IMG/VR virus record: IMGVR_UViG_3300030012_002105
Location: 1 to 42,886 of that record
Source of the DNA: a virus
Reading direction: 5' to 3' (one strand)
DNA length: 42,886 bases
Each line of letters opens with the position of its first letter. The stretch's first letter is position 1. This document shows positions 1 to 28,491 of the stretch, one piece after another. Made by a program: the position numbers and the translations under genes. The notes below the pieces were generated by a model that worked only from the letters and a program-made list of their open reading frames with translations, ran no database searches and was not told the origin of the DNA.

Positions 1-400
1 CCACTTGGAAAGGGTTGGCTGGGTTGGTAGTCCCCACACCAACGCTTCCGTCATTGTATATTGATGTAACTCCCGCACCTAAATTGACATCCACCCACTG
101 TGATGTAGGTATATTTGATAAAGTTGAACCATCCCCCTTGAATGTGGTTGCAGTCATCACACCACTTGTCGCATCAAGTATAATTCCGCTACCAACTTTA
201 ATTTGATTAAATGTACCAACACCAGTTACATTAAAATCTACTGTGGATGTTACCCCTGTTATATTTGCATTTCCTCTTACATCTAATAATTGGTCTGGAC
301 TCGTAGTTCCTAAACCTACACGATTTCCTCGTACAACAAGAACTTCATCATCTACCTGTACTCCATCACGGAAATTAAATGTCTTTCTTATATCTGCCAT
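1..400 (-). CDS. Tail-fibre/structural protein, N-terminal part (runs off left edge)
   Basis: The protein starts at 400 (MADIRKTFNFRDGVQVDDE) and is cut by the window edge after 133 residues. The visible part has repeated short beta-type motifs, including VGLGTTSPDQLLDVRG, FKGDGSTLSNIP and VGVGTTNP. These are typical of long tail-fibre or structural proteins of T4-like cyanophages and pelagiphages. The role is presumably virion surface or host recognition. It lies downstream of an oxygenase cluster on the same strand. The family resemblance is from memory of such repeats; the C-terminal receptor-binding part is not visible. Confidence 0.72.
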   Translation of the reverse strand, partial: MADIRKTFNFRDGVQVDDEVLVVRGNRVGLGTTSPDQLLDVRGNANITGVTSTVDFNVTGVGTFNQIKVGSGIILDATSGVMTATTFKGDGSTLSNIPTSQWVDVNLGAGVTSIYNDGSVGVGTTNPANPFQV

Positions 401-422
401 TTATAATAAGATTTTTAGTTAT

Positions 423-1043
423 TTATTCAGTTTCTTTATTGCCGAAGAAACTCGTAATAGCATACCTACCATATCCATCAAGATAATCAGAATCTTTGAT
501 CGAAACTTTGGATACACCATGTTCCACCCAGCCGGGCATTATTATTAATGAGTTATTATCACAACTGAATGAGTAATCATATTTAGGGAAGATTAACTCA
601 CCTCCTTCAAACTTTTTAGGTTCACGATAAAAGTAAGAAAATGCTAAAAATTGAATATATGTATCTATATGTGGTTTATAATAATCACCGTCATGATAAT
701 ATCTCACCTTTGTTGTATCACTATTACAAGACTTTGCTATCAAACAACAATCATGTATATTTCCAAATGGTTCTAATATTTTTTCATTAAATATTTTACG
801 ATTAACAGTTAATATATTAGAAATATGTCGATATTGTTTAGAGTATAATTTATCTAACCAGATCGCTTTTGAATTAGTTTTATGTACCACACCACCAAAA
901 TCTTTAGCATCAAACAACTTACCTTCTTTTGTATAAAAATCTAGTTCTTCCCAGATCAATTTAAGTTCCTCATCATCATAAAAATTATGAAGAATCATAT
1001 GTGGGAATGGATCTGTATATGTGTCAGCGGATATGTTCTGCAT
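423..1043 (-). CDS. 2OG-Fe(II) oxygenase (prolyl-4-hydroxylase-like)
   Basis: A 206-aa protein with the double-stranded beta-helix dioxygenase signature. H125-x-D127 lies in YKPHIDTYIQF, the distal iron ligand H175 in WVEHGVSKV, and R193 in GRYAITSF probably binds the 2-oxoglutarate carboxylate. EGGELIFP (about 146-153) is the usual strand between them. Such enzymes are frequent next to T4-like phage tail-fibre genes and may hydroxylate fibre or host proteins; the substrate is unknown. It overlaps the next upstream gene by one base (ATG at 1043), so translation is likely coupled. Confidence 0.82.
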   Translation of the reverse strand: MQNISADTYTDPFPHMILHNFYDDEELKLIWEELDFYTKEGKLFDAKDFGGVVHKTNSKAIWLDKLYSKQYRHISNILTVNRKIFNEKILEPFGNIHDCCLIAKSCNSDTTKVRYYHDGDYYKPHIDTYIQFLAFSYFYREPKKFEGGELIFPKYDYSFSCDNNSLIIMPGWVEHGVSKVSIKDSDYLDGYGRYAITSFFGNKETE

Positions 1044-1528
1044 TATAGAGCAACCTCCATACTTGGGTCTATGTCAAGATACAAAAAGATCATTTCTTGA
1101 TCTGATTCATTTGCTCCCTGATGTAAATTTTCAACATTAAATATCTCGACCTTTCCCTCCTTCCAGTAAACTCTCTCTTTTGTATCTATCCATTCTATGT
1201 AACACTTATTTCCTTTAGGAATTTTTAATGGAACTTGGACTCTTCTAAAATCTTTACCCCAAAGATTAAAATCTCTATGAGGTTTAGCAATTAATTTTGG
1301 TGGATATGAAATGTATGCAACACCAAATATCTTTTCATTTAAAATAATATTTTTTATTTTATTGTTTAATAATTTATCTCGATAAACTTTTCTCTTCTTT
1401 CCAAATTTAACATAACATACTGATGGATCGTATTTCATATATTTTGAAGTAATACCCTCCCTTCTCATTGGAAAAATAGTGCTTTTAGCCCAATGTTGTA
1501 ACATAATTAAATCAGAATTAGTAATCAT
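1043..1528 (-). CDS. Aspartyl/asparaginyl beta-hydroxylase-like dioxygenase
   Basis: A 161-aa protein resembling the Asp_Arg_Hydrox family. H84-R-D86 in KPHRDFNLWG is the first iron-binding pair. RRVQVPLKIP follows as the core strand, then GKVEIFNVENLHQGANES, where H136 is the second ligand. The length matches compact phage versions. It lies between another 2OG oxygenase and a cupin-like gene, with a 4-base ATGA overlap upstream. It is likely an oxidative modifier of proteins; the target cannot be read from sequence. Confidence 0.78.
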   Translation of the reverse strand: MITNSDLIMLQHWAKSTIFPMRREGITSKYMKYDPSVCYVKFGKKRKVYRDKLLNNKIKNIILNEKIFGVAYISYPPKLIAKPHRDFNLWGKDFRRVQVPLKIPKGNKCYIEWIDTKERVYWKEGKVEIFNVENLHQGANESDQEMIFLYLDIDPSMEVAL

Positions 1529-1998
1529 ACCTTAGTAAAAACTCCAACTAATGCGTCATTTAAATAAACATCATAGTGTTTATTTTTAAGTTTTGCATAA
1601 TCCATAGGTTTAAGCAATATATTATTAATTATAGGTTCACCTTTAAAACAAATTAACCAACTATTATCATCACCATAAAATGAATCTCGGACTAATCTAC
1701 CATCCCACATTTGATTTGGGTCTATGGCATTAAATCCAAACATATGATATGGACTTGATGATGTATAAACTCTCTGACTGTATAAGTAATCTTTTACATC
1801 TACAAAATTATTTGACTTAGCATCTAATTCGATAAATTTAGATTCAAATGGTCTTCCCATTTTTACACAACCCTTCGTTATAATGTGATATATCGCATTA
1901 TTATCTGGGAACCCATCTGTAAAAATACCATTTGCATCTCCATATCCACCACATAATACAAATTCCTCACATTTTTTAATAAATTTTTGTATCATCAT
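1525..1998 (-). CDS. Hypothetical protein, possibly cupin-like
   Basis: A 157-aa protein starting MMIQKFIKKCEEF. It contains ITKGCVKMG and a C-terminal half rich in beta-type segments (LICFKGEPIINNILLKP), faintly like a small cupin sensor. I see no metal-binding histidine cluster, so the fold is a guess. The gene overlaps the hydroxylase downstream (4 bases) and the gene upstream (4 bases) and belongs to the same oxygenase cluster. Confidence 0.6.
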   Translation of the reverse strand: MMIQKFIKKCEEFVLCGGYGDANGIFTDGFPDNNAIYHIITKGCVKMGRPFESKFIELDAKSNNFVDVKDYLYSQRVYTSSSPYHMFGFNAIDPNQMWDGRLVRDSFYGDDNSWLICFKGEPIINNILLKPMDYAKLKNKHYDVYLNDALVGVFTKV

Positions 1999-2342
1999 AA
2001 CTCAACTCTCCTCATATGCAGTATTTGTATTTTACGATTAAATCTTTTGACACAAATTACTTTACCAACTATATTTTGTATTTCAAACTTTCCTTGTATT
2101 TCTTCTGGAGTATTTTCTTTAATTACATCAAGTTTATCTTCTTGTATTTCAATTCTTCGTAATCCACTTTTGTTGACTAAACTTTCTGAAAAACTTTCCA
2201 AATCAAACATATCTAAATCATGACAATCAACACCTCGTGACGCATAACTATCAATGGGTTCTCTTGATTTTAAATTACAAAAACTGACAGATATTTGATT
2301 TGTGTCTGGATAATAATTATGAATTTTATAAATTATTTTCAC
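1995..2342 (-). CDS. Hypothetical phage protein with GTG start
   Basis: A 115-aa protein. An upstream in-frame ATG (2384) lies deep inside the preceding oxygenase gene. The GTG at 2342, giving VKIIYKIHNYYPDTNQ, is a better start and leaves a 17-base overlap. DCHDLDMFDLESF and an acidic middle followed by a strand-rich end resemble small proteins found beside tail-fibre and oxygenase genes in T4-like cyanophages. Function unknown. Confidence 0.62.
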   Translation of the reverse strand: MKIIYKIHNYYPDTNQISVSFCNLKSREPIDSYASRGVDCHDLDMFDLESFSESLVNKSGLRRIEIQEDKLDVIKENTPEEIQGKFEIQNIVGKVICVKRFNRKIQILHMRRVEL

Positions 2343-2904
2343 CCTGTATAATCCCCCATGATGTAGCAATATATTTAGTACCACCTAGAGGTGGATTTCC
2401 TCGATGAGTATGAGTAAATGATGCTGGAAAAATAAGCACATCTCCTGCCACTGCTTTTTCTCTTCTTTGTTGATATAAAAACTCTGTCTCACCCCCATCA
2501 AATTCGTCATTCAAATATACTTGTACTACAAATTGCCTACCCGCAACTTCTAATGCACCATTTTCATAATGCCATGCATGAAATCCACCACCTGCGGGTA
2601 TCTCTTTTAATTTTATGTCATGTAGTAAAAATTTTCTTTGACCTAAAACTTGAAATGCCTGTAAGTATTCATCAACACAAACTTTTAATTTAGGGAAAAT
2701 CTCCTCTGCTAATCTACTTGATGCAGAAAAATTGTACTCGTGAGTTATATTTACTGTTTTATGATCTTCTCGTGTCAATCTCTCTTTGTCATAAAACAAT
2801 AAATGATTTTGTTCAAAAAAATGTATGCCTTCAATTATCTTTTCACAATCTTTTTTTAAGAAAGCACCACTATATCTTCTTATTAAATCAGTTTCAAATG
2901 CCAT
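2326..2904 (-). CDS. 2OG-Fe(II) oxygenase
   Basis: A 192-aa protein with a beta-helix dioxygenase layout. HAWHYENG gives H112-x-E114 as proximal iron ligands, an HxE variant of HxD. NDEFDGGETEFLY forms the central strands, AGDVLIFPASFTHTHRG carries the distal histidine (H165 or H167), and K177 sits where a 2OG-binding Arg/Lys is expected. It is the first gene of a five-gene coupled set ending with the prolyl-hydroxylase-like enzyme. The likely job is hydroxylation of virion or host protein. Confidence 0.83.
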   Translation of the reverse strand: MAFETDLIRRYSGAFLKKDCEKIIEGIHFFEQNHLLFYDKERLTREDHKTVNITHEYNFSASSRLAEEIFPKLKVCVDEYLQAFQVLGQRKFLLHDIKLKEIPAGGGFHAWHYENGALEVAGRQFVVQVYLNDEFDGGETEFLYQQRREKAVAGDVLIFPASFTHTHRGNPPLGGTKYIATSWGIIQGENNL

Positions 2905-2943
2905 AAAATAATATCTCGCACTTCATTATAACATATATTTTCT

Positions 2944-3846
2944 CTATTGCACAGTAGTCGCAAGTGTTTGATTTGGATGAATTGATCCGTTATTGTTAAT
3001 TGTCACAGAAATTGAATTATTTGTTCTTCTGATCGCTGCACCTGTGGGCCCTCCTTGCCCTCCTGCACCACCAGATCCCTCTCCACCAGATCCATTACCA
3101 CCAGCATCTGCTGCATTATTTGGTGCAGATCCACCTTCTCCACCACTGCCACCGACAGCTTCTCCTCCATTATTTCCTCCACTACCTCCTTCTCCGGGCT
3201 CTCCTAAACTCGTAGCTGCTGATCCACCATTTCCACCGGCTCCACCAGATCCACCGGCTCCACCTTGTCCTACAGGAAGGCCACCTCCTCCACCGCCTCC
3301 TCCTCCGGAAGCAGTTCTCCATGATTTATGGTCATAGTCGAAGGCTCCTCCACCTCCTCCTCCACCACCAAAACCGGCAGAGATTACACCACCACTCGCA
3401 ACATTTACAGTAGCATTATATTCCACACCTAATCCACTTGAACCTGCACCACCTTGACTACCACTTGAATTACCATTTGCACCATTACCACCAAATCCAC
3501 CAGCACCAAGAATTTCTCCTGAACCACCAACATCAAAGGTAGAACCACTTCCACCTTCTGCTCTGGCTTTTAGGATTCTCCATCCACTTGATGTGTATGG
3601 CCTTTTAGGTAGAATAGCCAAAGCATTAACCTCTTGGTTTAGCATTGACCATACCTTTTGTCCGAATACTTTGTTGTAAAGCGAAGATAATCCGCTTGCA
3701 CCACTCATAACAGACGTTGAAGCATCGTGGGCGGTATGTAATCCACCAACAACACCTGCGCTCTTTAATAGAGCATTACCTGTACCGCCCCTAACTCCGT
3801 AGGTTGCAGCCTCTAAATCTTTCATTGTCTTAATATATCCACTCAT
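2944..3846 (-). CDS. Truncated major capsid protein fused to glycine-rich tail (possible chimera)
   Basis: A 300-aa reading frame made of two unlike parts. Residues 1 to ~105 (including SLYNKVFGQKVWSMLNQE, LAILPKRPYTSSGWRILK) look like the N-terminal arm of an HK97-fold major capsid protein, in the expected place after the protease/scaffold gene. From about residue 100 the protein becomes a glycine/serine-rich run (more than half Gly) ending NNSISVTINNNGSIHP, typical of phage tail-tip or adhesin regions. The capsid core domain is missing. The switch occurs within a short GGSG stretch (about 3,530-3,560), so microhomology-driven recombination or misassembly are both possible. Confidence 0.7.
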   Translation of the reverse strand: MSGYIKTMKDLEAATYGVRGGTGNALLKSAGVVGGLHTAHDASTSVMSGASGLSSLYNKVFGQKVWSMLNQEVNALAILPKRPYTSSGWRILKARAEGGSGSTFDVGGSGEILGAGGFGGNGANGNSSGSQGGAGSSGLGVEYNATVNVASGGVISAGFGGGGGGGGAFDYDHKSWRTASGGGGGGGGGLPVGQGGAGGSGGAGGNGGSAATSLGEPGEGGSGGNNGGEAVGGSGGEGGSAPNNAADAGGNGSGGEGSGGAGGQGGPTGAAIRRTNNSISVTINNNGSIHPNQTLATTVQ

Positions 3847-3851
3847 CTAAA

Positions 3852-5096
3852 TCACTCCTCAAATTGTGAAACAAAACTGTTTATCTCAGCCCATGACATT
3901 TCTGAAACATCTACATCAGGCACTTCTACTGTTTGTGCTTTAGCAATTGTTTCAGTCTGTTCTGAAAGGGATTTCCTTAAGGTAGCAAACTCCTCTCTTA
4001 GTGCTTCGACTTCATTCTTTGCGTCATACTCGCTTCGTGCAATTGATGCCTTTCTGACATTTTGCTCATCAGCGAACCTACTAGCAAACTTTGATTTTAG
4101 AGAATCATAAGCCATCTTCTCCAATTGTTCTGCTTTGTACGCTTCGTAGGCTTTTTCTACGTTATCTGGGGAAAGGTCTAAAGTAGCGAATTCATCATCC
4201 GACCACTCCTTGTAGAGAGAACCTAACTGACCTGCTTGTTCATGCTTTTTACCTTGTCCGGGTTCTCCCGCACCTGCATTCTCAACAAAGCCTTCTGGCC
4301 CAGTTCTTCCTTTTCTTTCCATATCGGCTTCATCCATATCAGCCATTTCAAGGTCTTTATCTGCCATTTCAACGTCTTCTTCATCAGAATCCATAGACTC
4401 ATAGCCCATTTTTTCTTTGTCGTCGTCCATAGACATTTTCTCCTCGTCTTTTTCCTTCATGGACATTTTCTCTTTGTCGTCCATGTCGGACTCTTCTTTT
4501 TTGAAGTCGTTTAACTGAGTCATAAGACCGTTTAACTCCTCCAAAGCCTTTTCCAACTTTTCACTCATTTTATCTTTCTCCTCTTTTAGAATGTCAAACT
4601 TTGCTTCTGGATTTATCCCCTTCTCACAAATTGTTACTTCATGGAGTTCTAACTTGTCAATTTCGTTATATTCACCTAATTCTTCATTAGACTTTTTTCT
4701 TTTACTTAAGGCTTGACCACCTATACTAAATGAACGTAATGTTCCTTTTCTAATACCTCTTGATATTTCTTTTGCTTTTTCTATGTCATCTCTTAATTTA
4801 ATAACAACATAAAATCCTACATCATCTACTTGTGTTCTATGGAGATTACCATGTTTATCTCTATACTTTTCTATTACATCTCCTACTTGAACATTTGAAT
4901 GGTTTGACATTACATTTCTGTATTTTGCATCTTGCATATATTTTGTTACTGCTTCTTCTAATGCTTTTAATGTAATTAAATCATTTTGTTTGTCTACTAT
5001 TTCTATTGAAGCATATCCACCTATTATTAAATCATCTGATTTTAAAATATTAAACTCATTATCGTCACTCGATTTTAACAGAATCGTACCGGACAC
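3852..5096 (-). CDS. Prohead protease fused to scaffold (XkdF-like)
   Basis: A 414-aa protein. Residues 20-170 form a herpesvirus/HK97-type maturation protease: GGYASIEIVDKQNDL, then H66 in MSNHSNVQVG as likely catalytic His, and S122/S124 in LRSFSIGG as nucleophile, followed by LELHEVTICEKGINPEA. Residues 180-414 are highly charged and coiled-coil (Met/Asp/Glu/Lys repeats around 205-260), the expected internal scaffold. The N-terminus (MSGTILLKSSDD) is a weak version of the WxxVLK tag seen in neighbouring gene products. It lies directly upstream of the capsid gene. The protease assignment is strong; the exact nucleophile is uncertain. Confidence 0.82.
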   Translation of the reverse strand: MSGTILLKSSDDNEFNILKSDDLIIGGYASIEIVDKQNDLITLKALEEAVTKYMQDAKYRNVMSNHSNVQVGDVIEKYRDKHGNLHRTQVDDVGFYVVIKLRDDIEKAKEISRGIRKGTLRSFSIGGQALSKRKKSNEELGEYNEIDKLELHEVTICEKGINPEAKFDILKEEKDKMSEKLEKALEELNGLMTQLNDFKKEESDMDDKEKMSMKEKDEEKMSMDDDKEKMGYESMDSDEEDVEMADKDLEMADMDEADMERKGRTGPEGFVENAGAGEPGQGKKHEQAGQLGSLYKEWSDDEFATLDLSPDNVEKAYEAYKAEQLEKMAYDSLKSKFASRFADEQNVRKASIARSEYDAKNEVEALREEFATLRKSLSEQTETIAKAQTVEVPDVDVSEMSWAEINSFVSQFEE

Positions 5097-5135
5097 ACAG
5101 ACACTTCCTACTTTTACTATATTAAGTCGGCGTTA

Positions 5136-7649
5136 TTACTTTATTTGCATGGTTAATTTTTTATACCTATCTTCAGTAATATCCCATATACCTTCGTCAT
5201 CCGACCTTTCTAACATCTTTTGTTTAATTCCAGTCCAAGCAAGCCATGTATCTTGTTTTTTTACTGGTATAACTCTCAAATGCAATCTAGTTTCAAACTT
5301 ATCGCCTTCGAGTTTATATTCATGATAACCATGTTTTTGAACACCCATAAGTATTTTACCACTATCTAAGAGTTTATCCTTTTGAACTCCCCTAGATACT
5401 TCTGCTGGATATTTACCTGATTTACCAAACAGGTTGTAAATATCCTTTGAGTTATCTATGTCAATAGTCCAAGCAAAAGTTTCATCTTTGTAATTAATTA
5501 TAAAATCTATATTACCATCCTTTCTAGTGTATAGTTGAAACTTTCCATATTTACTATCATCTTCTTCTTTATCCTTTATTATAATTTTAGAGTTAGCAGT
5601 AAATTTTTGGTTGCCTATTGGAATGAAAGCATCATGGTCATTCATAAAATTCTTTAACTTTCTAGCATTGTTTTCAAACATTGCTTCAGTTAATTCAGAA
5701 TCTCTTTTAACAATATACTCAAAGATATCTTTAATGTGTACTCCCTTTTCATCTGGGTCTTCATCTTGAAGATATTGTTTTAGTATGGCAATTGCTTCTG
5801 TTGTCTTTCCTTTGTGTATTTCTGACAACTGCTCTTTCCACATATCCATATCAGCAATAGCATTCTTTTCCATCAGGCTATCACCTTGGACACCATATAC
5901 AGAATAGCCTTCATAGTCTGACTTCAATAAAATTTCAGCAGTACCATGAATACCATCTGTGATTGTGTATTTTAACAACGCTTCTTCTACATTGTATTTT
6001 AATGACTTTCTCCCATCCTTTGAAAGAAACTCTAATGTCACTAGTTTCTCAGGAGTTTCTACTTCTGGTATCTCAATTACCTTTGCAGAATACAGACTAT
6101 ACCCTTTACCTGCTCTCCTTACTTCATCTACCTTTACTCTTACAATAGCACCTACTTCTACATTTTCTTTTGTGTTCAATGCTTTTCCTACTTGCAGGTA
6201 CGTCTTTCCTTCATATTCTGTACCTGTATGTTCTCTAGCCTCTTCACCCGATAATGGCCCAACGCCAACCGAATAAGAATATAGATTAGACTTAGTTTTC
6301 TTTTTCTCTAATACTATAACATCTAAATCTACAAATTTCTTGAATTTAATCCACTTTGGATTTTTCTTACTACCAATGTAATATGTAGATTCTATGTCTT
6401 TTATTACAACCCCTTCTGAGGTTTTTGATTGCATAATGTCTTTTGCGTACTTATCTATTTCAGCCAAGGAATCTGCTATCCTTGTGTTTTTCTTATTGGG
6501 AAACTCTAGTATCTCTTCTGAATGTTGTGCTAGTTGATATTGTAATATGTTGATTCTTTCTCTTAATGGATTGTCTGTATGGTCTTCTCCATCGTGAGCC
6601 ATTATATCGAATACCTTTGCTTTAAGTGTAGCATCTTTGTATTTATCTTTGAATAGATGTGCAATGGTATCTGCTCTATGTAAAGGCTCATCTCCATCGT
6701 ACAATATTAATTCTGCATCTAAAATTAAATCGCCAAATTTCTTTTGCTTTAGTATCTTAATTATATCTTGACACTTTGCAGAAATATCCTTTTTGTTATA
6801 GGAATATATCTTTACATCTGAATTCGCTTTGTGTATTTGTATTCTGATTCCATCATACTTTTCCTGTACTACCCACTCACCTGTGAATCCCTTCAAATCT
6901 TTTATGTCGTTGATTTCAAAGATTCTATACATTGGTTTGTTTGGTATAATGAAATCTATTTCTGCTTTCTCTTCATCACTCTTTTTCAAGTCTAGAGCAA
7001 CTAATTTCTTCCAGTCTTCTTCTGAGTTTTCCTCTAAGAATATCTTCTCTAATAATTTTAAAGCCCCTTCAAATTTATCTTCTACTCTATCATTTCCATC
7101 TTTATCATCGCCATAATGTTCCAAGATGTATAACGGCACATCCTTTAATGCTAAATCTAATCCTTCCGCACCTTGAGTAATTTTATCTGGTTTTAGGTCA
7201 TGTTTCTCCCATGCCTTTTCACTAATGGCGTTAGCGTCTGAGCGTAAAGCATAATGAATGAACATTGCATAGATAGGTGCTGAACGCAATAGATTGTCTA
7301 TTACATCATCACCCATCTGTCTAGCGAATGGGTCATTCAACTCAGCAGAATTGAAACGCATCTCCTTGACAGAATCATATAATTTCTTAGCATCGTATGA
7401 TTCAGGGTTCAATGCATTCTTACTGAATACTTCTTCTTCATCCAAGTATTTCTTAAGAGTAGATGAAAATTCACCTAAGCCATCAAAATCCTTTCTGATT
7501 CTCTTTACACTCTCAATCCAATTTTTTCTATATTCTTTGGGGTCTGATTTTGCTGATAGATAGTTATACCTAATGTCTTCGTAAAAATCTAAGATACGCT
7601 TCGCCAAGGCTTTGTTTTCCTTACCAACAAAAACCTCTTTCAGAAGCAT
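5136..7649 (-). CDS. ATP-dependent DNA ligase with long C-terminal extension
   Basis: Starting at ATG 7649 (MLLKEVFVGKENK) the protein has 837 aa. An N-terminal helical region (1-230) precedes the nucleotidyltransferase core. The active-site lysine is K264 in VVQEKYDGIRIQIH; then LILDAELILYD (motif III), KVFDIMAHDG (IIIa), SEGVVIKD (IV) and KWIKFKK (V). An OB-fold follows (~440-545). The last ~290 residues are not a standard ligase domain; they end RLHLRVIPVKKQDTWLAWTG and could be a diverged LigD-type phosphoesterase fold, but its catalytic residues are not evident. A TTG at 7664 is a less likely start. Location between head genes suggests a late, perhaps packaged, enzyme that seals genome ends or nicks. 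Confidence 0.87.
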   Translation of the reverse strand: MLLKEVFVGKENKALAKRILDFYEDIRYNYLSAKSDPKEYRKNWIESVKRIRKDFDGLGEFSSTLKKYLDEEEVFSKNALNPESYDAKKLYDSVKEMRFNSAELNDPFARQMGDDVIDNLLRSAPIYAMFIHYALRSDANAISEKAWEKHDLKPDKITQGAEGLDLALKDVPLYILEHYGDDKDGNDRVEDKFEGALKLLEKIFLEENSEEDWKKLVALDLKKSDEEKAEIDFIIPNKPMYRIFEINDIKDLKGFTGEWVVQEKYDGIRIQIHKANSDVKIYSYNKKDISAKCQDIIKILKQKKFGDLILDAELILYDGDEPLHRADTIAHLFKDKYKDATLKAKVFDIMAHDGEDHTDNPLRERINILQYQLAQHSEEILEFPNKKNTRIADSLAEIDKYAKDIMQSKTSEGVVIKDIESTYYIGSKKNPKWIKFKKFVDLDVIVLEKKKTKSNLYSYSVGVGPLSGEEAREHTGTEYEGKTYLQVGKALNTKENVEVGAIVRVKVDEVRRAGKGYSLYSAKVIEIPEVETPEKLVTLEFLSKDGRKSLKYNVEEALLKYTITDGIHGTAEILLKSDYEGYSVYGVQGDSLMEKNAIADMDMWKEQLSEIHKGKTTEAIAILKQYLQDEDPDEKGVHIKDIFEYIVKRDSELTEAMFENNARKLKNFMNDHDAFIPIGNQKFTANSKIIIKDKEEDDSKYGKFQLYTRKDGNIDFIINYKDETFAWTIDIDNSKDIYNLFGKSGKYPAEVSRGVQKDKLLDSGKILMGVQKHGYHEYKLEGDKFETRLHLRVIPVKKQDTWLAWTGIKQKMLERSDDEGIWDITEDRYKKLTMQIK

Positions 7650-7650
7650 A

Positions 7651-7890
7651 TCATTCCTTTCCAAATTCAGGTCTAATTCCCTCTAACGGGTCTACTTTCT
7701 CTTCAGCAGGTTTCTTCTGGGGTCTATCAACATCAACTGTTTCACCCTCTAATTCCACTGTTTCTTCTACTGGCAACTCATTGTAGTTCAATACTTCACC
7801 GACTGCCTCTTTTGCTTTGGTAACTGCATTGTCTATCAACGTGCCAATCTTCTCTTCTTTACTTACTTTCTTTGGTAATAAATCATCCAT
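7651..7890 (-). CDS. Small acidic hypothetical protein
   Basis: A 79-aa protein starting MDDLLPKKVSKEEKIG at ATG 7890, immediately after the preceding stop. It is charged, with an acidic middle (VEETVELEGETVDVDRP) and a Pro/Glu-rich end, and is likely disordered. It sits in the head operon between another short charged protein and the ligase, and overlaps neither strongly. No family recognised. Confidence 0.6.
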   Translation of the reverse strand: MDDLLPKKVSKEEKIGTLIDNAVTKAKEAVGEVLNYNELPVEETVELEGETVDVDRPQKKPAEEKVDPLEGIRPEFGKE

Positions 7891-7891
7891 T

Positions 7892-8131
7892 CTATACACT
7901 TCCTTCTATTCTTGAAACCATATCATTGATTTCTTTCCATTCCATCTTTGCTATCTTATCATCGTTGATTTCTGTTTCACCAACTGATATTGATGGAGCA
8001 GGTGTGGAGGCTACAACAAAACCTGATTTCATCAATAGGTTGTCATCATTGTAGACTGCTTTCTCCAAATTCTTTACTTTCTCTACTAACTCTTTCATTA
8101 GTAATAACATTTCATTGTTCTCTTCACTCAT
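7892..8131 (-). CDS. Small coiled-coil hypothetical protein
   Basis: A 79-aa protein starting MSEENNEMLLLMKELVEKV. Residues 1-30 are a strong coiled coil. The C-terminal KMEWKEINDMVSRIE resembles the end of the protease/scaffold protein (EMSWAEINSFVSQFEE), so the two may share a short docking peptide. ATGAGTGA overlap with the upstream gene indicates coupling. Possible assembly cofactor; function unknown. Confidence 0.62.
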   Translation of the reverse strand: MSEENNEMLLLMKELVEKVKNLEKAVYNDDNLLMKSGFVVASTPAPSISVGETEINDDKIAKMEWKEINDMVSRIEGSV

Positions 8132-8468
8132 CTTTCTCATCTCCTAAATCGCCTTTACTTTTTGGATATACTACTGCTCTAAGTTGCCTGTATAGAGTTT
8201 CGTAATCCTTTCTCAATTCAGATGCGGCCGCAATCAAGGAAACATTTGCCTCATCTATTTTCTTCATCTTCTTGAGCATCTTTTTGTCTGATTTCATCAT
8301 ATCAAGTGACCTTAATTCTTTTACTAAATCACTTAACTTCGTAAAATCCTGACCCATATATTCACTAGGTTCAGATGTCTGAACCAGTTTCTTTAACTTC
8401 TTCTTCTGTTTAGCATTTACCTTTTGCAGTAAATCACTATCTTCTTTTATTAATTGGCTTTCCCACAT
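8124..8468 (-). CDS. Tag-bearing hypothetical protein (MWESQLIK)
   Basis: A 114-aa, highly charged helical protein starting MWESQLIKEDSDLLQ. The first eight residues fit the recurrent N-terminal tag of this operon in a shortened form. The remainder is Lys/Glu-rich, including KQKKKLKKLV and KKMLKKMKKI, and may bind nucleic acid or scaffold. It overlaps both neighbours. No family recognised. Confidence 0.62.
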   Translation of the reverse strand: MWESQLIKEDSDLLQKVNAKQKKKLKKLVQTSEPSEYMGQDFTKLSDLVKELRSLDMMKSDKKMLKKMKKIDEANVSLIAAASELRKDYETLYRQLRAVVYPKSKGDLGDEKDE

Positions 8469-9019
8469 TATCTAGTCCTCCTGTTAAATCTATCTTCATT
8501 GAATTGTTGGTTGTCATCATAGTCTGATGCCTTTCTGTCTGTATCATAATCACCAAACTCATGTCCTCCTACTGTGCTTCCTTTTAGTTTGCCATTCTTT
8601 GTCATCTTTTTCCAATGCTTCTCACAAACTCTAAAGCCACATTTTCCGCTATCTGAATACTTGTCATTGTAGGGTATAGAACACCAGTATTCTGCACACT
8701 CCTTACATTTGCCGGGATAGTTTGGATTACTTTTTGCCTTCCATCTATCATCCATACTACCATCAGTAATATATTCACATTCAGGACAACCACCGCCTTT
8801 TACATCAACATCGGTTTCATCCTTCAAATCAACTGCATCAACGGGAGCAATCCAAGCAAGGTCATCACTTCTACTTCTATCTCTTGAATCTGGTCTAATG
8901 ATGGTTTCTGGCCTTAAGTCTTTTAGAATCCTTTTCCAGTTATCATAGCCTTTTACCCATCCTTCGGGTATCTCATCCTCTTTTACAACATGATTATCAT
9001 CACCGCAAGCATTACACAT
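8468..9019 (-). CDS. Zinc-binding hypothetical protein
   Basis: A 183-aa protein with an N-terminal CNAC knuckle and a central cluster of pairs: CPEC (~96), CKEC (~119), then single cysteines and CEKH (~147). This spacing suggests two or three zinc knuckles. Residues ~26-33 contain WKRILKDL, an internal copy of the tag-like motif. The C-terminus is Asp/Arg-rich and probably disordered. It is part of the coupled head operon; likely structural or DNA-contacting, with no named family. Confidence 0.6.
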   Translation of the reverse strand: MCNACGDDNHVVKEDEIPEGWVKGYDNWKRILKDLRPETIIRPDSRDRSRSDDLAWIAPVDAVDLKDETDVDVKGGGCPECEYITDGSMDDRWKAKSNPNYPGKCKECAEYWCSIPYNDKYSDSGKCGFRVCEKHWKKMTKNGKLKGSTVGGHEFGDYDTDRKASDYDDNQQFNEDRFNRRTR

Positions 9020-11297
9020 CTTCTTGTTCCCTCCTTTTTCTTTCTGCTAAATCTCTTAATGCTTGCATTTGAGTAGGAGTAGACGTTGGTACTTTCTCCT
9101 TCTTACCTGTGGTTGGATTGGTTCTAGTTTTAATCTTACCCTCGGAATCATATTCGTATATAGTCTTGTAAGGGTCGGCTTCTTTTTCCCTTCTCTTTCT
9201 ATTTGCTTCTTCCTTAGCCTTCTGTTTTCTTTCCTCTTCAAGTCTAGAAGTTTCCTGTGCAAATTGTTGTTGCATTGGAGTTTCCATACCTTCTCTACTT
9301 ATCTCTTCCAACAAAGTTTCGTATTCAGGAATAAAGGTCTTCATTTGTTGATACTGAGAATTTACGTCCTGTTGTGTCTTTCGTATGGACGTTTTGATAC
9401 CTGCTAAATCTAAATCTGTATCTCTTTGTCCTTCTGATAACAAACCAGACCATTCAGCACTTTCTGGTATTTGATACCTGAATCCTTTTGCATCCATAAA
9501 AGCCTCAGTTAATTTTACTGATGCATTGAAATAAAATTTACTTTCTTTGAATAGTTTTTCCATAGACTTGATTAGTTTCTTATATCCTTTCTTAATATGT
9601 TCATCTCTATCATGAGTATCATCAGGTGCGTCTTCTAATAACTGTGCAAACGTTTCATTAAACTCAGCAATTATCTTACTATCAGACCAACCCTCTAATC
9701 CTTCTTCGTCTTCTCCCTCTCGTAAAAAGAACTTGTCTGATAAAACGTCCCAAGTAGCAGTTACAGAAGTATATTTATTCAACAATTTACTCAAGTCAGA
9801 TTCGTTATTTAACGCTAACAAATCATCGTATTCTATATCTTGAGGGTATTCTTTTGCATTTACTTGTCTTGCTATTTGAGATACATTTGTCTTTGCAGTC
9901 CTAAGTTTTTGCATTAATCCTTTTATTTCTGATGTTGAAGCAGACTTTAGTTTAGGATTGATATCCTTTAGTCTTCTTACTAATGTGTTAAAGGTATCTC
10001 CCTCCTTTAACATTTGAATAATACTAGGGTGTAGGTTGTTTCTTTCTCCTGAAACATTCAAGGTCATATTGTATAGGAATTTATTATTTAGAATATTATT
10101 TACCTTCAACCTTGTTTGTGTAGAACTAGATATTTCATCAGCATTCAATTCTCGTATTGCTTGAGCCAATGCCTCTTCTTGATTAGTTAATTCTCTATCT
10201 ACCTTTTTGCTTCTCTCCTTTAACTTAGGAGTTAGTTTATCTATAATTTCATCTGAAAAACTAGGCAACCTTAATTGTCTTATTGCTCGAATCAAAGTGT
10301 TCTTTACATCTTTAGGTCTTATTTCAGATGTTATTAGAAGTTCCTTTTCTGCCTTTCCTGTTTTCTGTTGCCTCTTTAGTGAGTCTATCTTGGATTGTAA
10401 TCTAGTCTTGGCTGCTAACTTATCTTTCTTACTTGTAGTAAGAGTATCTAATTTATCATACAATTCTACTCTTTTCTTGTAGTTTTCAATTCCGGCAGTA
10501 AATGTTTCATCATACTTCCCATCTACTTCATTTCTAGGTTTTCTAGATTCAGACTTCCCATCCTTTATTTTCTCATCTGGGAACTTAGGAGAATAATTGA
10601 AAGTGCCAGTAAATGCTTCACGCATAGCAGTTTTGATTTTGAAGAATTCTGTTATTGGATTGTCTTTCTTAGCCTTCTCTCTAACTTTAGAAGCCTGTGT
10701 AATCTTCTCCTCTAACTCCTCTATTCTTTCTTCTGCTTCTTTTCCTCTAGCCCCTTCTAGTTCATCTAATTCATCATAGAAAGGCTTAGTTGTTTCATCG
10801 AATGTCTTTTCTGCCTCTACATTAGTATCTAATTTTTTAGATGCTTGTTCCCTTTGTGGCTTATTCAACTCAGTAATCTTTAACTTCTTACCCTCTTCAT
10901 CGGTGATTTTTGTATCTATCTCTAATAGTTCCTGATATCTAGACTGTAATTTAGTTAGTCTGTCAACAATCTTTTGAAGAGTGGTTATTCTGTTCTTGAA
11001 AACTTTCTGCTCACCAGTTTCATCAATTAACTTTAACTGTGCCTCAAGATTTTTTATATCTCTCTTGATTTTATCTTTGGCTTCCTTCGGTAGTTTAGTA
11101 TCAGATTTTTGTTGTTCATCTATTGCTTTATCTACCACTTGCATTATAGTAGGTACTGGTGCGCTAAGTCCAGTCATTCTTTCTAATGCCTTTTCTAATT
11201 CCCTGTATAGTGGTCTAGATGTATAGTCTTCTTTTACAATAGGCATAGATTTCTCCATGACCATCGGCTTAGACTTTAATACATCCATAAAAGCCAT
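9012..11297 (-). CDS. Large coiled-coil hypothetical protein (762 aa), tag MAFMDVLK
   Basis: The best start is ATG 11297, one base after the preceding stop, giving MAFMDVLKSKPMVMEKS; the tag has Phe in place of Trp. The rest is almost entirely long charged helices (for example 70-330 and 560-762), with no enzyme motifs visible. Its size and position between portal and protease suggest an internal head, scaffold or ejection-type protein. The acidic/basic C-terminus (RLEEERKQKAKEEANRKR) is a strong coiled coil. Function unknown. Confidence 0.68.
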   Translation of the reverse strand: MAFMDVLKSKPMVMEKSMPIVKEDYTSRPLYRELEKALERMTGLSAPVPTIMQVVDKAIDEQQKSDTKLPKEAKDKIKRDIKNLEAQLKLIDETGEQKVFKNRITTLQKIVDRLTKLQSRYQELLEIDTKITDEEGKKLKITELNKPQREQASKKLDTNVEAEKTFDETTKPFYDELDELEGARGKEAEERIEELEEKITQASKVREKAKKDNPITEFFKIKTAMREAFTGTFNYSPKFPDEKIKDGKSESRKPRNEVDGKYDETFTAGIENYKKRVELYDKLDTLTTSKKDKLAAKTRLQSKIDSLKRQQKTGKAEKELLITSEIRPKDVKNTLIRAIRQLRLPSFSDEIIDKLTPKLKERSKKVDRELTNQEEALAQAIRELNADEISSSTQTRLKVNNILNNKFLYNMTLNVSGERNNLHPSIIQMLKEGDTFNTLVRRLKDINPKLKSASTSEIKGLMQKLRTAKTNVSQIARQVNAKEYPQDIEYDDLLALNNESDLSKLLNKYTSVTATWDVLSDKFFLREGEDEEGLEGWSDSKIIAEFNETFAQLLEDAPDDTHDRDEHIKKGYKKLIKSMEKLFKESKFYFNASVKLTEAFMDAKGFRYQIPESAEWSGLLSEGQRDTDLDLAGIKTSIRKTQQDVNSQYQQMKTFIPEYETLLEEISREGMETPMQQQFAQETSRLEEERKQKAKEEANRKRREKEADPYKTIYEYDSEGKIKTRTNPTTGKKEKVPTSTPTQMQALRDLAERKRREQEDV

Positions 11298-11299
11298 AC

Positions 11300-11512
11300 T
11301 TACCACTTGTTTTCAGTTCTTCTCTTTTGTTTCTTAGGCAGTCCGATATAACCCGGAATGTCAGCCGAACCGGGTTTCTCTTTCTTGACTGTCTTAGGGT
11401 CAGCACCAATATAATCGTAGTTTCTACTAGTTGTAACTTTACGCTCACTAGCCTCTCTTCTCCTAGCCTTGGCTAGTTCTTTCTCTAAATCTCTTACACT
11501 CTTTTCACTCAT
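11300..11512 (-). CDS. Small basic hypothetical protein
   Basis: A 70-aa protein starting MSEKSVRDLEKELAKARRRE at ATG 11512; an upstream in-frame extension to 11575 lies inside the preceding microgene and is unlikely. The helical N-terminus is followed by NYDYIGADPKTVKKEKPG and a basic end. ATGAGTGA overlap with the upstream microgene shows coupling. Function unknown. Confidence 0.55.
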   Translation of the reverse strand: MSEKSVRDLEKELAKARRREASERKVTTSRNYDYIGADPKTVKKEKPGSADIPGYIGLPKKQKRRTENKW

Positions 11513-11627
11513 CTTTTTCACCTTTATCTTTTGCAGCCTCTTCCATAGACTCTTTCTTGTTCCCATCACCATCAAGGTCTAAGAAGTCTGGCTTCTTCTT
11601 CTTCTTTACTATTTCTTCCCACTTCAT
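11505..11627 (-). CDS. Tag-bearing microprotein (MKWEEIVK) with EF-hand-like loop
   Basis: A 40-aa gene that ordinary length cut-offs miss. It starts MKWEEIVKKKKKPDF at 11627, then LDLDGDGNKKESMEEAA, a calcium-loop-like DxDGDGxxxE segment also seen in small proteins of marine T4-like phages. It is flanked by coupled genes with 1-8 base junctions, which supports it being real. The first eight residues are a perfect copy of the operon-wide tag. Confidence 0.6.
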   Translation of the reverse strand: MKWEEIVKKKKKPDFLDLDGDGNKKESMEEAAKDKGEKDE

Positions 11628-11628
11628 T

Positions 11629-12279
11629 TTATCCAATCATCCTAAACATGTTTAAAATCTCTCTAATCTGAATTGCTGCTCTTTTAGGGTCACGATACAT
11701 CAAACCCTCATTATAATCTTCTATTATATATTTAAGTGACCTTTTTCTTCTATAATCACTACTACCAACTAGTTTTTCTAATCCTTCTATATCCGCCTCA
11801 CTAAATTCTCTTAAGAGTTCATCAGGTATAATTCTTTTTAATGCCTTTCTTTTAGTTCCCGGTGTTTGCATATTGAAACCATAGTTACTTCTTTTGAGTC
11901 TACTAATAGTACCACCCCAATAATTTTGAGCCATTCTATCTAACATTCTTTTATCTCTATCTCGTAAATTATCATACAACTTAAACTTACCTTTAATGTC
12001 TATAACTGATTCATTTAATTCAGTAGTTTCAATTAACTCAGCAGGTACTTCTTGGTCTTCTTCATAAAGGGTGTAAAGTTTAGTTTCAAGTGTACTTATT
12101 GAACGTTCCATATTATCTATTGCGTAATTTCCTCTAGGTCTATCCAATAATTCCTCTTTTGTTACCCATATATCATTAAATGATTGTTGTTTTTCACTAG
12201 TTGGTCTACTCCATCTTTGATACCAAGCAAGCACTGTTTTGAACCCAGATGATTTCTTTAGTATGATATTCTGCCACAC
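11629..12279 (-). CDS. Tag-bearing hypothetical protein (MWQNIILKK)
   Basis: A 216-aa, mostly helical, basic protein starting MWQNIILKKSSGFKTVLAW. It directly follows the portal gene and overlaps it by one base. The N-terminal tag is a slightly lengthened form. The C-terminal half (KLVGSSDYRRKRSLKYIIED and onward) is helical. The position could suit a head-completion or minor head protein, but I recognise no family. Confidence 0.62.
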   Translation of the reverse strand: MWQNIILKKSSGFKTVLAWYQRWSRPTSEKQQSFNDIWVTKEELLDRPRGNYAIDNMERSISTLETKLYTLYEEDQEVPAELIETTELNESVIDIKGKFKLYDNLRDRDKRMLDRMAQNYWGGTISRLKRSNYGFNMQTPGTKRKALKRIIPDELLREFSEADIEGLEKLVGSSDYRRKRSLKYIIEDYNEGLMYRDPKRAAIQIREILNMFRMIG

Positions 12280-13931
12280 TATCCAACCCTCCTTTCAGTC
12301 CTTTTATCCACATTCTGATTACCCGCTTCTTTGGGTAGTCCGGTGAATCTTTGGTCTGGCCCTACACTCATACTTGGCTTATTTCTAGTTTGTCCCTTTA
12401 CTTCTGCGGGCTTACCTGCTTCTTCTTTTGATGGTCTAGTACCTGCTTCCATCATTTGTCCTAGTTGTGACTGGTCTATGTTTGTACCTGCATAGGGGTC
12501 AAGTTCTATTTCTTCTTCTTTACCCTTCTTTCCTTGTTGCATTTCTGGTGGAGGCTTTTCAAATGTGAACCTGCCTTCATCATCCATATCTACTTCAAAC
12601 CCTAGATTCTTTATTGACGCAGCAATATTGACTTCGATTTCTCTCTTTCTTAATTTAGCAATAGCATCCTCTTCTTCCGATGGTGGTAGTTTTAACTGCC
12701 AATCTGTAATACCAAATTCTTTTGTTAGGAATGGCAAGACGTATTCGTTGTAAAGTGTCTGAGCCATCTCTACTGCTCTATTTGTTACAAGTATCTGCAT
12801 ACCCTCATTATTCAATCCGCCACTAGCGGAATTATCAGACATGAATATTTTACTCACGCCATAGAATGCTGATATTCTATCTCTTAGGTCATCCTTCACA
12901 GAAACGTAATCCATTTCCTTTAGGCTATCCATGAATTTAATCCATTCAATAGAACCCTTACCATTTTCTGCTTCAATACCCATAACAGGTATGAAGTGTG
13001 GGTCTTGTTCCATCTTTTCTTTGACTCCACGCCAGAAGGATTTCATTGAGTCTATATTTCTAGTCTGTACTGCAAGAAGTCCTCTTGGCATCCTACTCTT
13101 AGAATAAGATGAATTGACGTAGTTTTCCATAGCAAGTAATGTAGTGATATGATTCCATAGTGTCAACACAGGGGATAAACCATACAATCTACTAGGGTTA
13201 TACTTACTGAAATGTAATACTTCTCCCTCAATGTAATATTGTTCCTTACCATTCACTCTATTGACATAGTGAACAGGGTACATCATATCACCGCACATTT
13301 CACATTGTCCAACAGGGTCTTGTGTTATTTGGTCACGGTGTTTAATGCAAGTGAAACCACTATTTCCTTTATCCCCATTTTGGTCTGCATAAATGTGCAT
13401 GGTTACAGGGTCGCCACGATATATTTCCTTTATCTTGTGCATTCTAATTTTACCTGCATTGTCAATGTAGTATTCTTTGACTAGTATAATGTAAGCATCG
13501 TCCATGATATTCAAATCATCTTCTAACTCTTTTAGAACATCAATGAACATCTGCTCAGACGAATTGACATACTCATCTAAGAATTTGTGAGCATATTTCA
13601 ATTGCTTCTTATCAGGTTTCTTTAGGTTCATAGAACCACAATCAGCACATTGTTTTACTGCACTTTGATGTTCATTACCACAGTCAGCACACTTTGATGT
13701 AAATTTCTCTTCCCATGTATATCCTCTTCTGAATATTTCATTCTTTAACTGCGTTGTGCAGGTTCTTACAATTACAGAAGACTGAGCAACATGATAAAGT
13801 ATTGGTGACGTTATCATGTAACTTGTGTCTTTTTCCTGTATTCCGGGGTTGAATATCTTCCTATCCTCCGGCTTAGGGGTTCCCCTTCTAAACAAATTAG
13901 TAAGGGTAAATCTTCTTCTTTCTTCTACCAT
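12279..13931 (-). CDS. Portal protein with zinc-ribbon insertions
   Basis: A 550-aa protein directly after the terminase/LAGLIDADG pair. The portal-like core includes SPILYHVAQSSVIVRTCTTQ near the N-terminus, VLHFSKYNPSRLYGLSPVLT, LWNHITTLLAMENYVNSSYS and RISAFYGVSKIFMSDNSASG, a common late portal segment. Two zinc-binding insertions are visible: C81xxC84 with C95xxC98, and a C/H plus CEMC set around 195-220. The C-terminus is disordered (Pro/Glu-rich). It forms the dodecameric DNA channel at the capsid vertex. Zinc ribbons inside a portal are uncommon. Confidence 0.83.
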   Translation of the reverse strand: MVEERRRFTLTNLFRRGTPKPEDRKIFNPGIQEKDTSYMITSPILYHVAQSSVIVRTCTTQLKNEIFRRGYTWEEKFTSKCADCGNEHQSAVKQCADCGSMNLKKPDKKQLKYAHKFLDEYVNSSEQMFIDVLKELEDDLNIMDDAYIILVKEYYIDNAGKIRMHKIKEIYRGDPVTMHIYADQNGDKGNSGFTCIKHRDQITQDPVGQCEMCGDMMYPVHYVNRVNGKEQYYIEGEVLHFSKYNPSRLYGLSPVLTLWNHITTLLAMENYVNSSYSKSRMPRGLLAVQTRNIDSMKSFWRGVKEKMEQDPHFIPVMGIEAENGKGSIEWIKFMDSLKEMDYVSVKDDLRDRISAFYGVSKIFMSDNSASGGLNNEGMQILVTNRAVEMAQTLYNEYVLPFLTKEFGITDWQLKLPPSEEEDAIAKLRKREIEVNIAASIKNLGFEVDMDDEGRFTFEKPPPEMQQGKKGKEEEIELDPYAGTNIDQSQLGQMMEAGTRPSKEEAGKPAEVKGQTRNKPSMSVGPDQRFTGLPKEAGNQNVDKRTERRVG

Positions 13932-13933
13932 TT

Positions 13934-15250
13934 TTAGAACTCCATTTTACTGTTCTGTTCAAGTTTAGAGATACTGTCTATGTCAATATCCCATGCTTTC
14001 CAATCAAATTTTGCATTGTCACTATGATTGTAATATTTCATTAGTTTGAATAACTCGCCTTTCCTATCCTTATACCAGTCTTCTTTCTTATTTTCTTTTT
14101 TAATTTTAATTAACTCTAATAAGACCTTAGCGTTGTTTTTCTTTAATTTAAAGTGAGGCAAACATTTGGTTAATAAATCTGTTATTTCTGCACCAGAATA
14201 AAAATTAAGTCTGTTAATTAATCTAGTATCTTGCGGGGATTTCTGGTCTAAATGTAGCCTTCCCATTCCTATTGATTTATGCATTTCTAACATGAATGCC
14301 TTACCTCTATTTCCTGTTGCTACTAAACCTACTCTTGGATTATGATTTTTATCCATTGTAATATATCCATCTGAATCAATAAAGGCAGCAGTATAAGCCC
14401 ATATATTCTTTTTAATCTCATCATTTATTTTATAATAAGCACCGTCAACACTTGTTATATTTTCATCCTTTGCTAACTTTGCTATTATTCGAGAAGAACT
14501 TCTATTTTGTAGTTTCTTAGGTAATTGGTCATGTATCTGTCTAGCAGATATACCCGGATTATAACAAACAGAATCTAGGATGGCCTTCCTAATTTCATCT
14601 TTAGGAGATGTGCTTATAGTAGTTTCCTTTAGTAATGATTTGAATACTTTCTTTTCATTAGTCATCTGCTTTGTAAGACTAGCATACTCTTTATTGAAAG
14701 ATATGTCCTTTCTCTCTAAATCTGCTTCCCAATATTTACAAAGGCTATCTACCATCTTTCTTCTTTTATCTTCTTCTTTGACTAAATACAATTTATACAA
14801 TTGTTCTTCATTCAAAGTCATAGCCTGTAATGGAACCCTATATTTTTTAATCCAATGAATACTATCAATACACTTATTCAAGTGGTCACTATATGCATCT
14901 ATTAAATTGTCAATAGATTTAGTAAATTCAATCTTAGGATTGCCTTTCAAGGTTCTTCTGTAATCTCTCATTTCTTTTACTATTGAGGGAACATCTCTAC
15001 CTTTTATTGTATATTTTCTTGGATAACTAAACAAAGAATTCTTTGCTTGTGATAGATTAATGTCCCTTTCAGATGCAAACAGTTTGATTAGGTCATCGTC
15101 ACCCATCAATGGTTGTGATGCAAGCCAATCTGATGCATTTTTAGTTTCATCAATTACTGCCTGTAATTCATCCTCGGCTTGACTAGCCTCTTCATCAGCC
15201 TCATCCAATTTATCAGCAGTTTCCCGCATTTGTTCTGTTAACTTACTCAT
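13934..15250 (-). CDS. Helical/wHTH protein with C-terminal LAGLIDADG homing-endonuclease domain
   Basis: A 438-aa protein. Residues 1-210 are helical, starting with a coiled coil (EQMRETADKLDEADEEASQA). Residues ~215-285 (PKDEIRKAILDSVCYNPGIS, ARQIHDQL) form a winged-helix-like domain. Residues ~293-410 carry a LAGLIDADG domain with AYTAAFIDSDGYITMD as its catalytic helix end, and DLLTKCLPHFKLKKNNAKVL as the usual later helix. Only one such motif is seen, so it may act as a dimer. It lies between terminase and portal. It may be a minor packaging protein invaded by a homing endonuclease, or a DNA-recognition cofactor. Confidence 0.78.
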   Translation of the reverse strand: MSKLTEQMRETADKLDEADEEASQAEDELQAVIDETKNASDWLASQPLMGDDDLIKLFASERDINLSQAKNSLFSYPRKYTIKGRDVPSIVKEMRDYRRTLKGNPKIEFTKSIDNLIDAYSDHLNKCIDSIHWIKKYRVPLQAMTLNEEQLYKLYLVKEEDKRRKMVDSLCKYWEADLERKDISFNKEYASLTKQMTNEKKVFKSLLKETTISTSPKDEIRKAILDSVCYNPGISARQIHDQLPKKLQNRSSSRIIAKLAKDENITSVDGAYYKINDEIKKNIWAYTAAFIDSDGYITMDKNHNPRVGLVATGNRGKAFMLEMHKSIGMGRLHLDQKSPQDTRLINRLNFYSGAEITDLLTKCLPHFKLKKNNAKVLLELIKIKKENKKEDWYKDRKGELFKLMKYYNHSDNAKFDWKAWDIDIDSISKLEQNSKMEF

Positions 15251-15264
15251 TTACTTCACCTGTA

Positions 15265-16704
15265 CTAAAAATTCAGCCCTGCTATTCCCACAGGAACACC
15301 AATTACGGGCGTTTGTGGGCCATCAAATAATTCTAGGTCGTCAAGGAGCATGAAAGACTCAGAAGGCGTTTGTGCAGCCGCATTTGCTAACGCTAGTGCC
15401 ATCACTAGGTCATCGTGCGCACCCACTCCTTCAAACTTTCCAGAATCGGTTATCGAAAACATAGATAATTCTTCTATAATGTTCATAGTCATTTTTCTGC
15501 TATTGTTATCTCCATAAGGAAGGTGCATTTTGTTGTTTTCAAAGTTCATTTGAAGTCCTAAGATAATTTCTTGCTTCTTTCTCCTAGTTGTATTGAAATC
15601 CCTAACGTTCATGTCTGTTACACTTCTTAATTCCTGAGTAAACGCCTTTGCGAATGTATTTGTTTCATAAAGAACCACTTCTGGCTGAAATATTTGACCA
15701 ATCAACTTAAGTTTCTCAATATTTTCTCTAAATTGCACATTTTTCGCTCTATCAACATGTACGATTGACTTATTCATGTTTTCATCCACTTCTAAGACCA
15801 TAATTACATTGTAATCTCCATCAGTAGAGATAGCAGGGTCAACTCCAACGTAATATTTGTAGCCTTTGTCTTTTCTATTGCCTAATCTAAGTATAAGATG
15901 CTCATTTTTTGCATTTTCTAGGTGTTCTTGACCAAATAAAGCCGTACCTGTTGAAATTGGTATGCACAAATACTCTCTTGTGAATTTTAATGAGCCGATT
16001 TCTGCTTTTCTTTGCATTAGTGCATCATAATCCCACCTTTCAGGCCAAAGTGGGTCATTATTTGAATCTAAACATGGATATTTCCTTACAGTATATGCTT
16101 GATTCTCCTCTAGTTGAGTGAAAATATCAGTATATGTGAAAGGAGTGCCTATCATTCTTAGATTAGCAGTATGATGTAGTGTTGGTATCATATCACCAAA
16201 GAACCAGTCGGTTACTCTATTGATACCCGCTAAACTAAACTCTTTCAAAGGGTCGTCAATAATTATTTCTTGAGGGTGAAGACCACGAATCTGAGAACCT
16301 ACCGACCTTTCTAGAATTGAATTGCCATTCGTTAATTGAATGTTACCAATAGCCCATCCTCTTGACGGTCTAAACTTCTTTAGTTGTGGTATGTTGAAAT
16401 ATCTGTCTATCTCTCTCATGTGAACCAATGTCTGCTTTTGGTTAGATGAAATGTATAGCATCTGATATGGTGGTTCTTGGAAGACTAAATTCCATACTAC
16501 CCATGAATGCATAAATACAGATTTTCCGTGGTCACGACTACAAACAATAACTGTTCTATCTGTATTTTCCATTGTTTCTAACCATTCTTGCATATATTCA
16601 GGGTACATCATACCCAATACATTCTGGAAGAAATATGGAAAGGAGTTCTTAGATAATTCCATATCCATTCTATGAGCGAAATTTAAGTCTTCTAACTCAC
16701 TCAT
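15265..16704 (-). CDS. Terminase large subunit
   Basis: A 479-aa packaging motor. The ATPase domain has Walker A CSRDHGKS (55-62), a coupling segment QMLYISSNQKQT and Walker B EIIIDDP (146-152). The nuclease domain has YVGVDPAISTDGDYN (~288) and GAHDDLVMALALA near the end, supplying the metal-binding aspartates of the RNase H-like fold. Length and order fit Terminase_6-type enzymes. It translocates DNA into proheads through the portal and cuts concatemers. The ATG overlaps the upstream gene by four bases. Confidence 0.93.
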   Translation of the reverse strand: MSELEDLNFAHRMDMELSKNSFPYFFQNVLGMMYPEYMQEWLETMENTDRTVIVCSRDHGKSVFMHSWVVWNLVFQEPPYQMLYISSNQKQTLVHMREIDRYFNIPQLKKFRPSRGWAIGNIQLTNGNSILERSVGSQIRGLHPQEIIIDDPLKEFSLAGINRVTDWFFGDMIPTLHHTANLRMIGTPFTYTDIFTQLEENQAYTVRKYPCLDSNNDPLWPERWDYDALMQRKAEIGSLKFTREYLCIPISTGTALFGQEHLENAKNEHLILRLGNRKDKGYKYYVGVDPAISTDGDYNVIMVLEVDENMNKSIVHVDRAKNVQFRENIEKLKLIGQIFQPEVVLYETNTFAKAFTQELRSVTDMNVRDFNTTRRKKQEIILGLQMNFENNKMHLPYGDNNSRKMTMNIIEELSMFSITDSGKFEGVGAHDDLVMALALANAAAQTPSESFMLLDDLELFDGPQTPVIGVPVGIAGLNF

Positions 16705-17147
16705 ACATTTCTCTCCTCAAATTCTTGTATTCCTTTTTTATCAGCAGATTCTTCTTCACACTTCTGCCAAAACTCTAGCAGTTCTCTACCAGTTTTAACC
16801 ATCAGGTCTAACTCGCCTATTGAGATTTCACCACCTGCTTCTTGCATTGCTTGATTTAATACTTCCATGCCACCATCATCTAAGTCTTCTAATAGTTGTA
16901 GTAGTTCATCAGAATCTAATTTACAATCAATATCCATAATGTACGAAACAAAGTCGTCATCAAGTTGGTTATACTGAGGCATTAGCCTGAGTCTTTCTTG
17001 TGTATATTCACAACAAGATTTTTCTTGCTTGTGTGGTTTTAGATATGGCTTCATCCATTCTTCAACGGCCATTGGCCTATTGAGAATCCTTCTTGCCTCA
17101 TCAAAGTCGTCAACTCTATTCTTGACAACATCAAACCAATCACTCAT
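16701..17147 (-). CDS. Tag-bearing acidic protein upstream of terminase
   Basis: A 148-aa protein with ATG at 17147 giving MSDWFDVVKNRVDDFDEA; an in-frame TTG slightly upstream is less likely. The DWFDVVK tag is followed by a helical, acidic protein containing CCEYTQERLRLMPQYNQLDD. The position immediately before the large terminase, with a 4-base overlap, could suit a packaging accessory. No family recognised. Confidence 0.62.
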   Translation of the reverse strand: MSDWFDVVKNRVDDFDEARRILNRPMAVEEWMKPYLKPHKQEKSCCEYTQERLRLMPQYNQLDDDFVSYIMDIDCKLDSDELLQLLEDLDDGGMEVLNQAMQEAGGEISIGELDLMVKTGRELLEFWQKCEEESADKKGIQEFEERNV

Positions 17148-17152
17148 ACTAC

Positions 17153-17437
17153 TCAATATCCCCTATCCATCTTACTTGGTTGCATTAACTCTCTTGCTTT
17201 TTGGCAACAGTATCTAATTTTCTGAGTTGATTGTAGAAACCAAAAGGTGTCCTTCTCCAACCCAAACTTATTCTCTATGTGATTACATAGTTCCCTTCTT
17301 GTCATTGATTCAAAGTCATCATCTATTTCTAAACCCAAAATTGGCCCTGTTACCGGAGGCATTTTGCTATCTAGATAGACATATACATGACCCATTATAT
17401 CAATGAGTTTACTTATTACTCTATGTCGTAACTTCAT
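17153..17437 (-). CDS. Hypothetical protein in packaging cluster
   Basis: A 94-aa protein. ATG 17437 (MKLRHRVISKLIDIM) has the site AGGTGA a few bases upstream and is chosen over an earlier in-frame start. The helical N-terminus precedes GLEIDDDFESMTRRELCNHI and KIRYCCQKARELMQ. It shares two cysteines in tandem with its neighbour. Function unknown; it sits just before the terminase cluster. Confidence 0.58.
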   Translation of the reverse strand: MKLRHRVISKLIDIMGHVYVYLDSKMPPVTGPILGLEIDDDFESMTRRELCNHIENKFGLEKDTFWFLQSTQKIRYCCQKARELMQPSKMDRGY

Positions 17438-17441
17438 TTTA

Positions 17442-21832: not shown

Positions 21833-21838
21833 CTAAAT

Positions 21839-25576: not shown

Positions 25577-25581
25577 TTTAA

Positions 25582-28204: not shown

Positions 28205-28209
28205 CTTAA

Positions 28210-28473: not shown

Positions 28474-28491
28474 TTTATTCTCTCCGTTGTA

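Follow-up and report, generated by a model that had tools for sequence, protein, structure and literature searches.

A capsid-adhesin fusion ORF at a 21-base joint between two marine viruses is best explained by misassembly

The 42,886-nucleotide window analysed here (IMG/VR virus record IMGVR_UViG_3300030012_002105, complete) carries on its minus strand a 300-aa ORF (2944-3846) in which the N-terminal arm of a capsid protein runs in frame into a glycine-rich tail. This fusion ORF is almost certainly an assembly artefact, and the contig a chimera in which two co-occurring marine viruses are joined. To judge from their sequences, virus A is probably a magrovirus-like tailed virus of archaea, and virus B probably a T4/cyanophage-like phage.

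The ORF consists of approximately 103 residues of capsid arm followed by 190 glycine-rich residues. The major head protein family phrog_24667 (PHROGs) matches only its N-terminal part (aa 57-111, E=1.5e-4); a Pfam search gave no match, leaving the glycine-rich remainder without any family there. Glycine-rich composition begins at about residue 110, and the switch lies at window positions 3516-3536 (residues ~104-110), within a run coding for DVGGSG. A sequence-only reading of this DNA had accurately placed the end of the arm at about residue 105 and the switch within a GGSG-type run. Its description of what follows as a glycine-rich tail with no HK97 core is borne out by the composition and by a tblastn search of the record, that is, of the window itself, with the whole major capsid protein (MCP) of the closest relative, L001: only residues 1-111 were matched, and no second full capsid gene or MCP core was found. 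With no E-loop, P domain or A domain behind the arm, the ORF is not an HK97-fold MCP.

When the two halves were searched separately, as the same reading had suggested, their best relatives differed, one resembling haloarchaeal tailed viruses in its capsid protein and the other cyanophages in its tail fibre. Both parts are near-identical fragments of two intact genes, each found in a separate virus record, and for this reason the fusion is more than a chance resemblance.

The 5' 331 bases (110 codons) of the virus A MCP gene occupy 3516..3846 (minus strand). With the first 108 residues as sole query, 80 loci on marine virus contigs were kept, the best being L001 (100% amino acid identity over query residues 1-108), where the intact gene (6001-7362, 453 aa) directly follows that of the prohead protease. 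In 62 of the 80 loci there was an ORF of 400 aa or more, in no case glycine-rich; of the others, 12 escaped the motif filter, five ran off the end of their contig, and the last carried an ORF of 374 residues. The fusion was not seen to recur: no glycine-rich MCP ORF stood among the parsed related loci (maximum Gly fraction 0.13).

The flank agrees with this assignment. From 3516 onwards the window is 98.5-99.1% identical to a 22.6 kb record, G004 (98.5% over 3516-19486), which carries an intact, haloarchaeal-virus-like capsid gene of 453 aa. A second locus, L123, matches 3516-11096 at 99.1% DNA identity, the match beginning exactly at 3516. The virus A segment (3516..42886, minus strand), except for a short inverted stretch at ~32.3-33.6 kb (32292-33644), is collinear with a 96-kb relative, G001, as far as 42845, and comparison with that relative revealed no further joint over 3516-42845. 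The window is thus some 39 kb of virus A with one foreign segment (1-3536) attached at its end. PHROGs and Pfam family matches identify, all on the minus strand, a prohead protease (3852-5096), a DNA ligase (5136-7664), a portal (12279-13931) and a terminase (15265-16704).

Several features of virus A were noted in passing. A tag of the form ~M(S/K/T)W..(I/V)(L/V)K starts many otherwise unrelated proteins; in the window it is shared by the minus-strand genes at 16701-17156, 19883-21832, 21839-22747, 25265-25585, 25582-25887, 27417-27776, 27773-28216, 28782-29636, 29782-31248 and 31535-31786. The W..(I/V)(L/V)K core stands at the N-terminus of 10, 11 and 17 ORFs in the relatives G001, G002 and G003, against three internal matches in each, and is absent from the virus B record G005. 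Such a tag might direct proteins to the capsid or serve as a prohead packaging signal. One tagged protein (28782-29636), a PAP2-superfamily phosphatase, has W..VLK at its N-terminus and a second, similar internal motif (WSDILS, residue 199). The stretch 31249-36500 is CCATATGG-rich and has few long ORFs. It contains 30 matches to CCATATG/CATATGG in 5.25 kb, against five in the other 37.6 kb (counts on both strands, so that the palindrome ACCATATGGT, a frequent form, counts twice). Repeats of the ACGCTAAGTGTAA type also occur within it, and its composition is atypical too; it is a candidate replication origin or regulator-binding array. A 438-aa protein between terminase and portal (13934-15250) has a C-terminal match (aa 285-402) to the HNH/homing endonuclease family phrog_5046, and tRNA-Leu(taa) and tRNA-Lys(ttt) genes (38639-39090) lie just before and overlap the start of a gene for a pyrimidine dimer DNA glycosylase-like protein. 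The tag and the CCATATGG-rich region are of more interest than the capsid-adhesin joint itself.

The other half of the ORF (2944..3536, minus strand) is the 3' part of a glycine-rich gene of virus B. Used as sole query, this part retrieved a set of loci different from that of the capsid arm, the best being L240 (99% amino acid identity, query residues 8-204), where the gene is complete (5521-6594, 357 codons). Directly upstream of it in L240 is a gene for a long tail fibre of 1788 aa that carries an S74 chaperone domain and has its nearest relatives in Synechococcus/Prochlorococcus T4-like myoviruses. No family match to the glycine-rich protein was found in PHROGs or Pfam; its position and composition suggest a putative tail-tip or adhesin role. 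The first 167 of its 357 residues (MTLPSSPNSISMSQIANEFG...) are absent from ORF 2944-3846, which is accordingly not a whole adhesin either.

The entire virus B segment (1..3536, minus strand) is 99.97% identical over 3536 bases to L240 and L160, both matches terminating exactly at 3536. It corresponds equally closely (99.97%) to positions 6738-10273 of a 16 kb record, G005, in which an intact 357-aa glycine-rich gene adjoins a long tail fibre of T4/cyanophage type. Besides the rest of the glycine-rich gene, the segment holds genes for two 2OG-Fe(II) oxygenases, an Asp/Arg-hydroxylase-like protein, two unknowns and the start of a 913-aa tail fibre (PHROGs/Pfam families). The window genes at 423-2904 (oxygenases and unknowns) belong to the same L240 contig.

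The two matches meet in a single word. Exact comparison with L001 and L240 shows the virus A match ending at 3516 and the virus B match beginning at 3536; the intervening 21 bases, TTGATGTTGGTGGTTCAGGAG on the minus strand (3516..3536), are identical in both parents. The two parental loci have no 21-mer in common except TTGATGTTGGTGGTTCAGGAG, and no 22-mer at all, while in 150 random pairs of an A locus with a B locus the longest common word was 11-17 nt. Only four other viral records contain TTGATGTTGGTGGTTCAGGAG, every one of them matching one parent or the other, and scans of the viral collections, which may omit records very near the window, did not find the joint in another record. In genome_contigs the word gave one stray match to a Maricaulis MAG. 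The tetranucleotide profile of 1-3526 is also divergent (mean r 0.734, against 0.84-0.90 in 10 of the 11 other segments), but composition alone is weak evidence here, because segment 31735-35260, within virus A, is equally atypical (0.721).

These observations have the marks of a chimeric metagenome contig: the two sides have near-identical counterparts in two different genomes, each assembled independently, and the joint sits on an exact 21-nt common word, which is an assembler k-mer size. A real gene fusion was considered and rejected, both parent genes being intact elsewhere and the joint being exactly the common 21-mer. The sequence-only reading had proposed that two genomes were joined by a recent recombination or a misassembly. 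They are indeed joined, and the evidence favours misassembly, since the joint is exactly 21 bases long and falls at the longest common word between two genomes that are both intact elsewhere; the missing core, and the lack of an independent record with the joint, point the same way.

In widely used assemblers, k starts at 21 by default. Unrelated genes of the two viruses spell Asp-Val-Gly-Gly-Ser-Gly with identical codons, giving the identical word. The assembler step itself is inferred: a small-k de Bruijn graph would merge the two genomes at TTGATGTTGGTGGTTCAGGAG, and the assembler would then exit along the wrong branch. The reading frame happens to survive because each gene reads these 21 bases in the same frame, as the same peptide. 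If the smallest k of the pipeline were above 21, the joint would have to have arisen in another way, for example by scaffolding.

The intact frame could also be credited to natural illegitimate recombination, in which an archaeal virus genome was joined to that of a cyanophage-like phage through the 21 bases of microhomology, yielding a capsid-arm/glycine-rich hybrid protein; 21 nt of identity suffices for some recombination systems. Such an event is very improbable, as it would leave a hybrid genome without a capsid core, from parents of which one resembles viruses of archaea and the other viruses of cyanobacteria, hosts belonging to different domains. Separate intact parents, moreover, still match the halves at 98.5-99.97% identity, and the collection scans, which may omit records very near the window, found the joint nowhere else. 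We regard it as comparably far-fetched that a recent true recombinant persists as a defective or helper-dependent genome expressing the hybrid. A laboratory chimera, formed by amplification (MDA or PCR) before sequencing and faithfully reported by the assembler, has a negligible probability. Amplification chimeras too form at short identical words, but usually with shorter and varied microhomology and in a minority of reads, and a joint at the longest word common to the parental loci is the better fit to an assembler.

The record should be divided at 3516-3536, and the fusion ORF should be dropped; the importance of the case lies mainly in quality control. Left unsplit, the record would suggest an archaeal virus with cyanophage-type tail genes and 2OG-Fe(II) oxygenases, or a real capsid-adhesin fusion. 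A chimeric joint may preserve the reading frame and so evade detection as a broken gene.

Among known systems, the arm corresponds to the HK97-fold MCP of haloarchaeal tailed viruses (HCTV-1, HVTV-1; phrog_24667, Pfam SU10_MCP), being residues 1-108 of the L001 MCP. At full length, the latter is 24% identical to the HCTV-1 MCP (87% coverage, E=2e-18) and matches phrog_24667 over residues 57-451 (E=2.5e-21). The haloarchaeal proteins have a core, whereas the window ORF ceases to be capsid at residue 110. The last 190 residues of the ORF match the L240 protein, a glycine-rich tail-tip/adhesin-like protein encoded beside the distal long tail fibre as in T4-like marine phages, but neither the first 167 residues of that protein nor the fibre gene next to it is present in the window. 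Genes reported for the magroviruses of Poseidoniales include portal, terminase, MCP, prohead serine protease and DNA ligase (PMC10160649). Virus A has the same set, with portal, terminase, prohead protease and ligase in the window and the MCP in L001, and a Poseidoniales host may be suggested for it. K-mers shared between genomes are known to cause chimeric metagenome contigs (reviewed in PMC7299287). Simulated viral metagenomes yield such contigs as well; in one data set they made up 11.5% of those built by SPAdes (PMC4585024). The present contig is like these in joining two genomes at a common k-mer, the sole difference being the chance retention of the reading frame.
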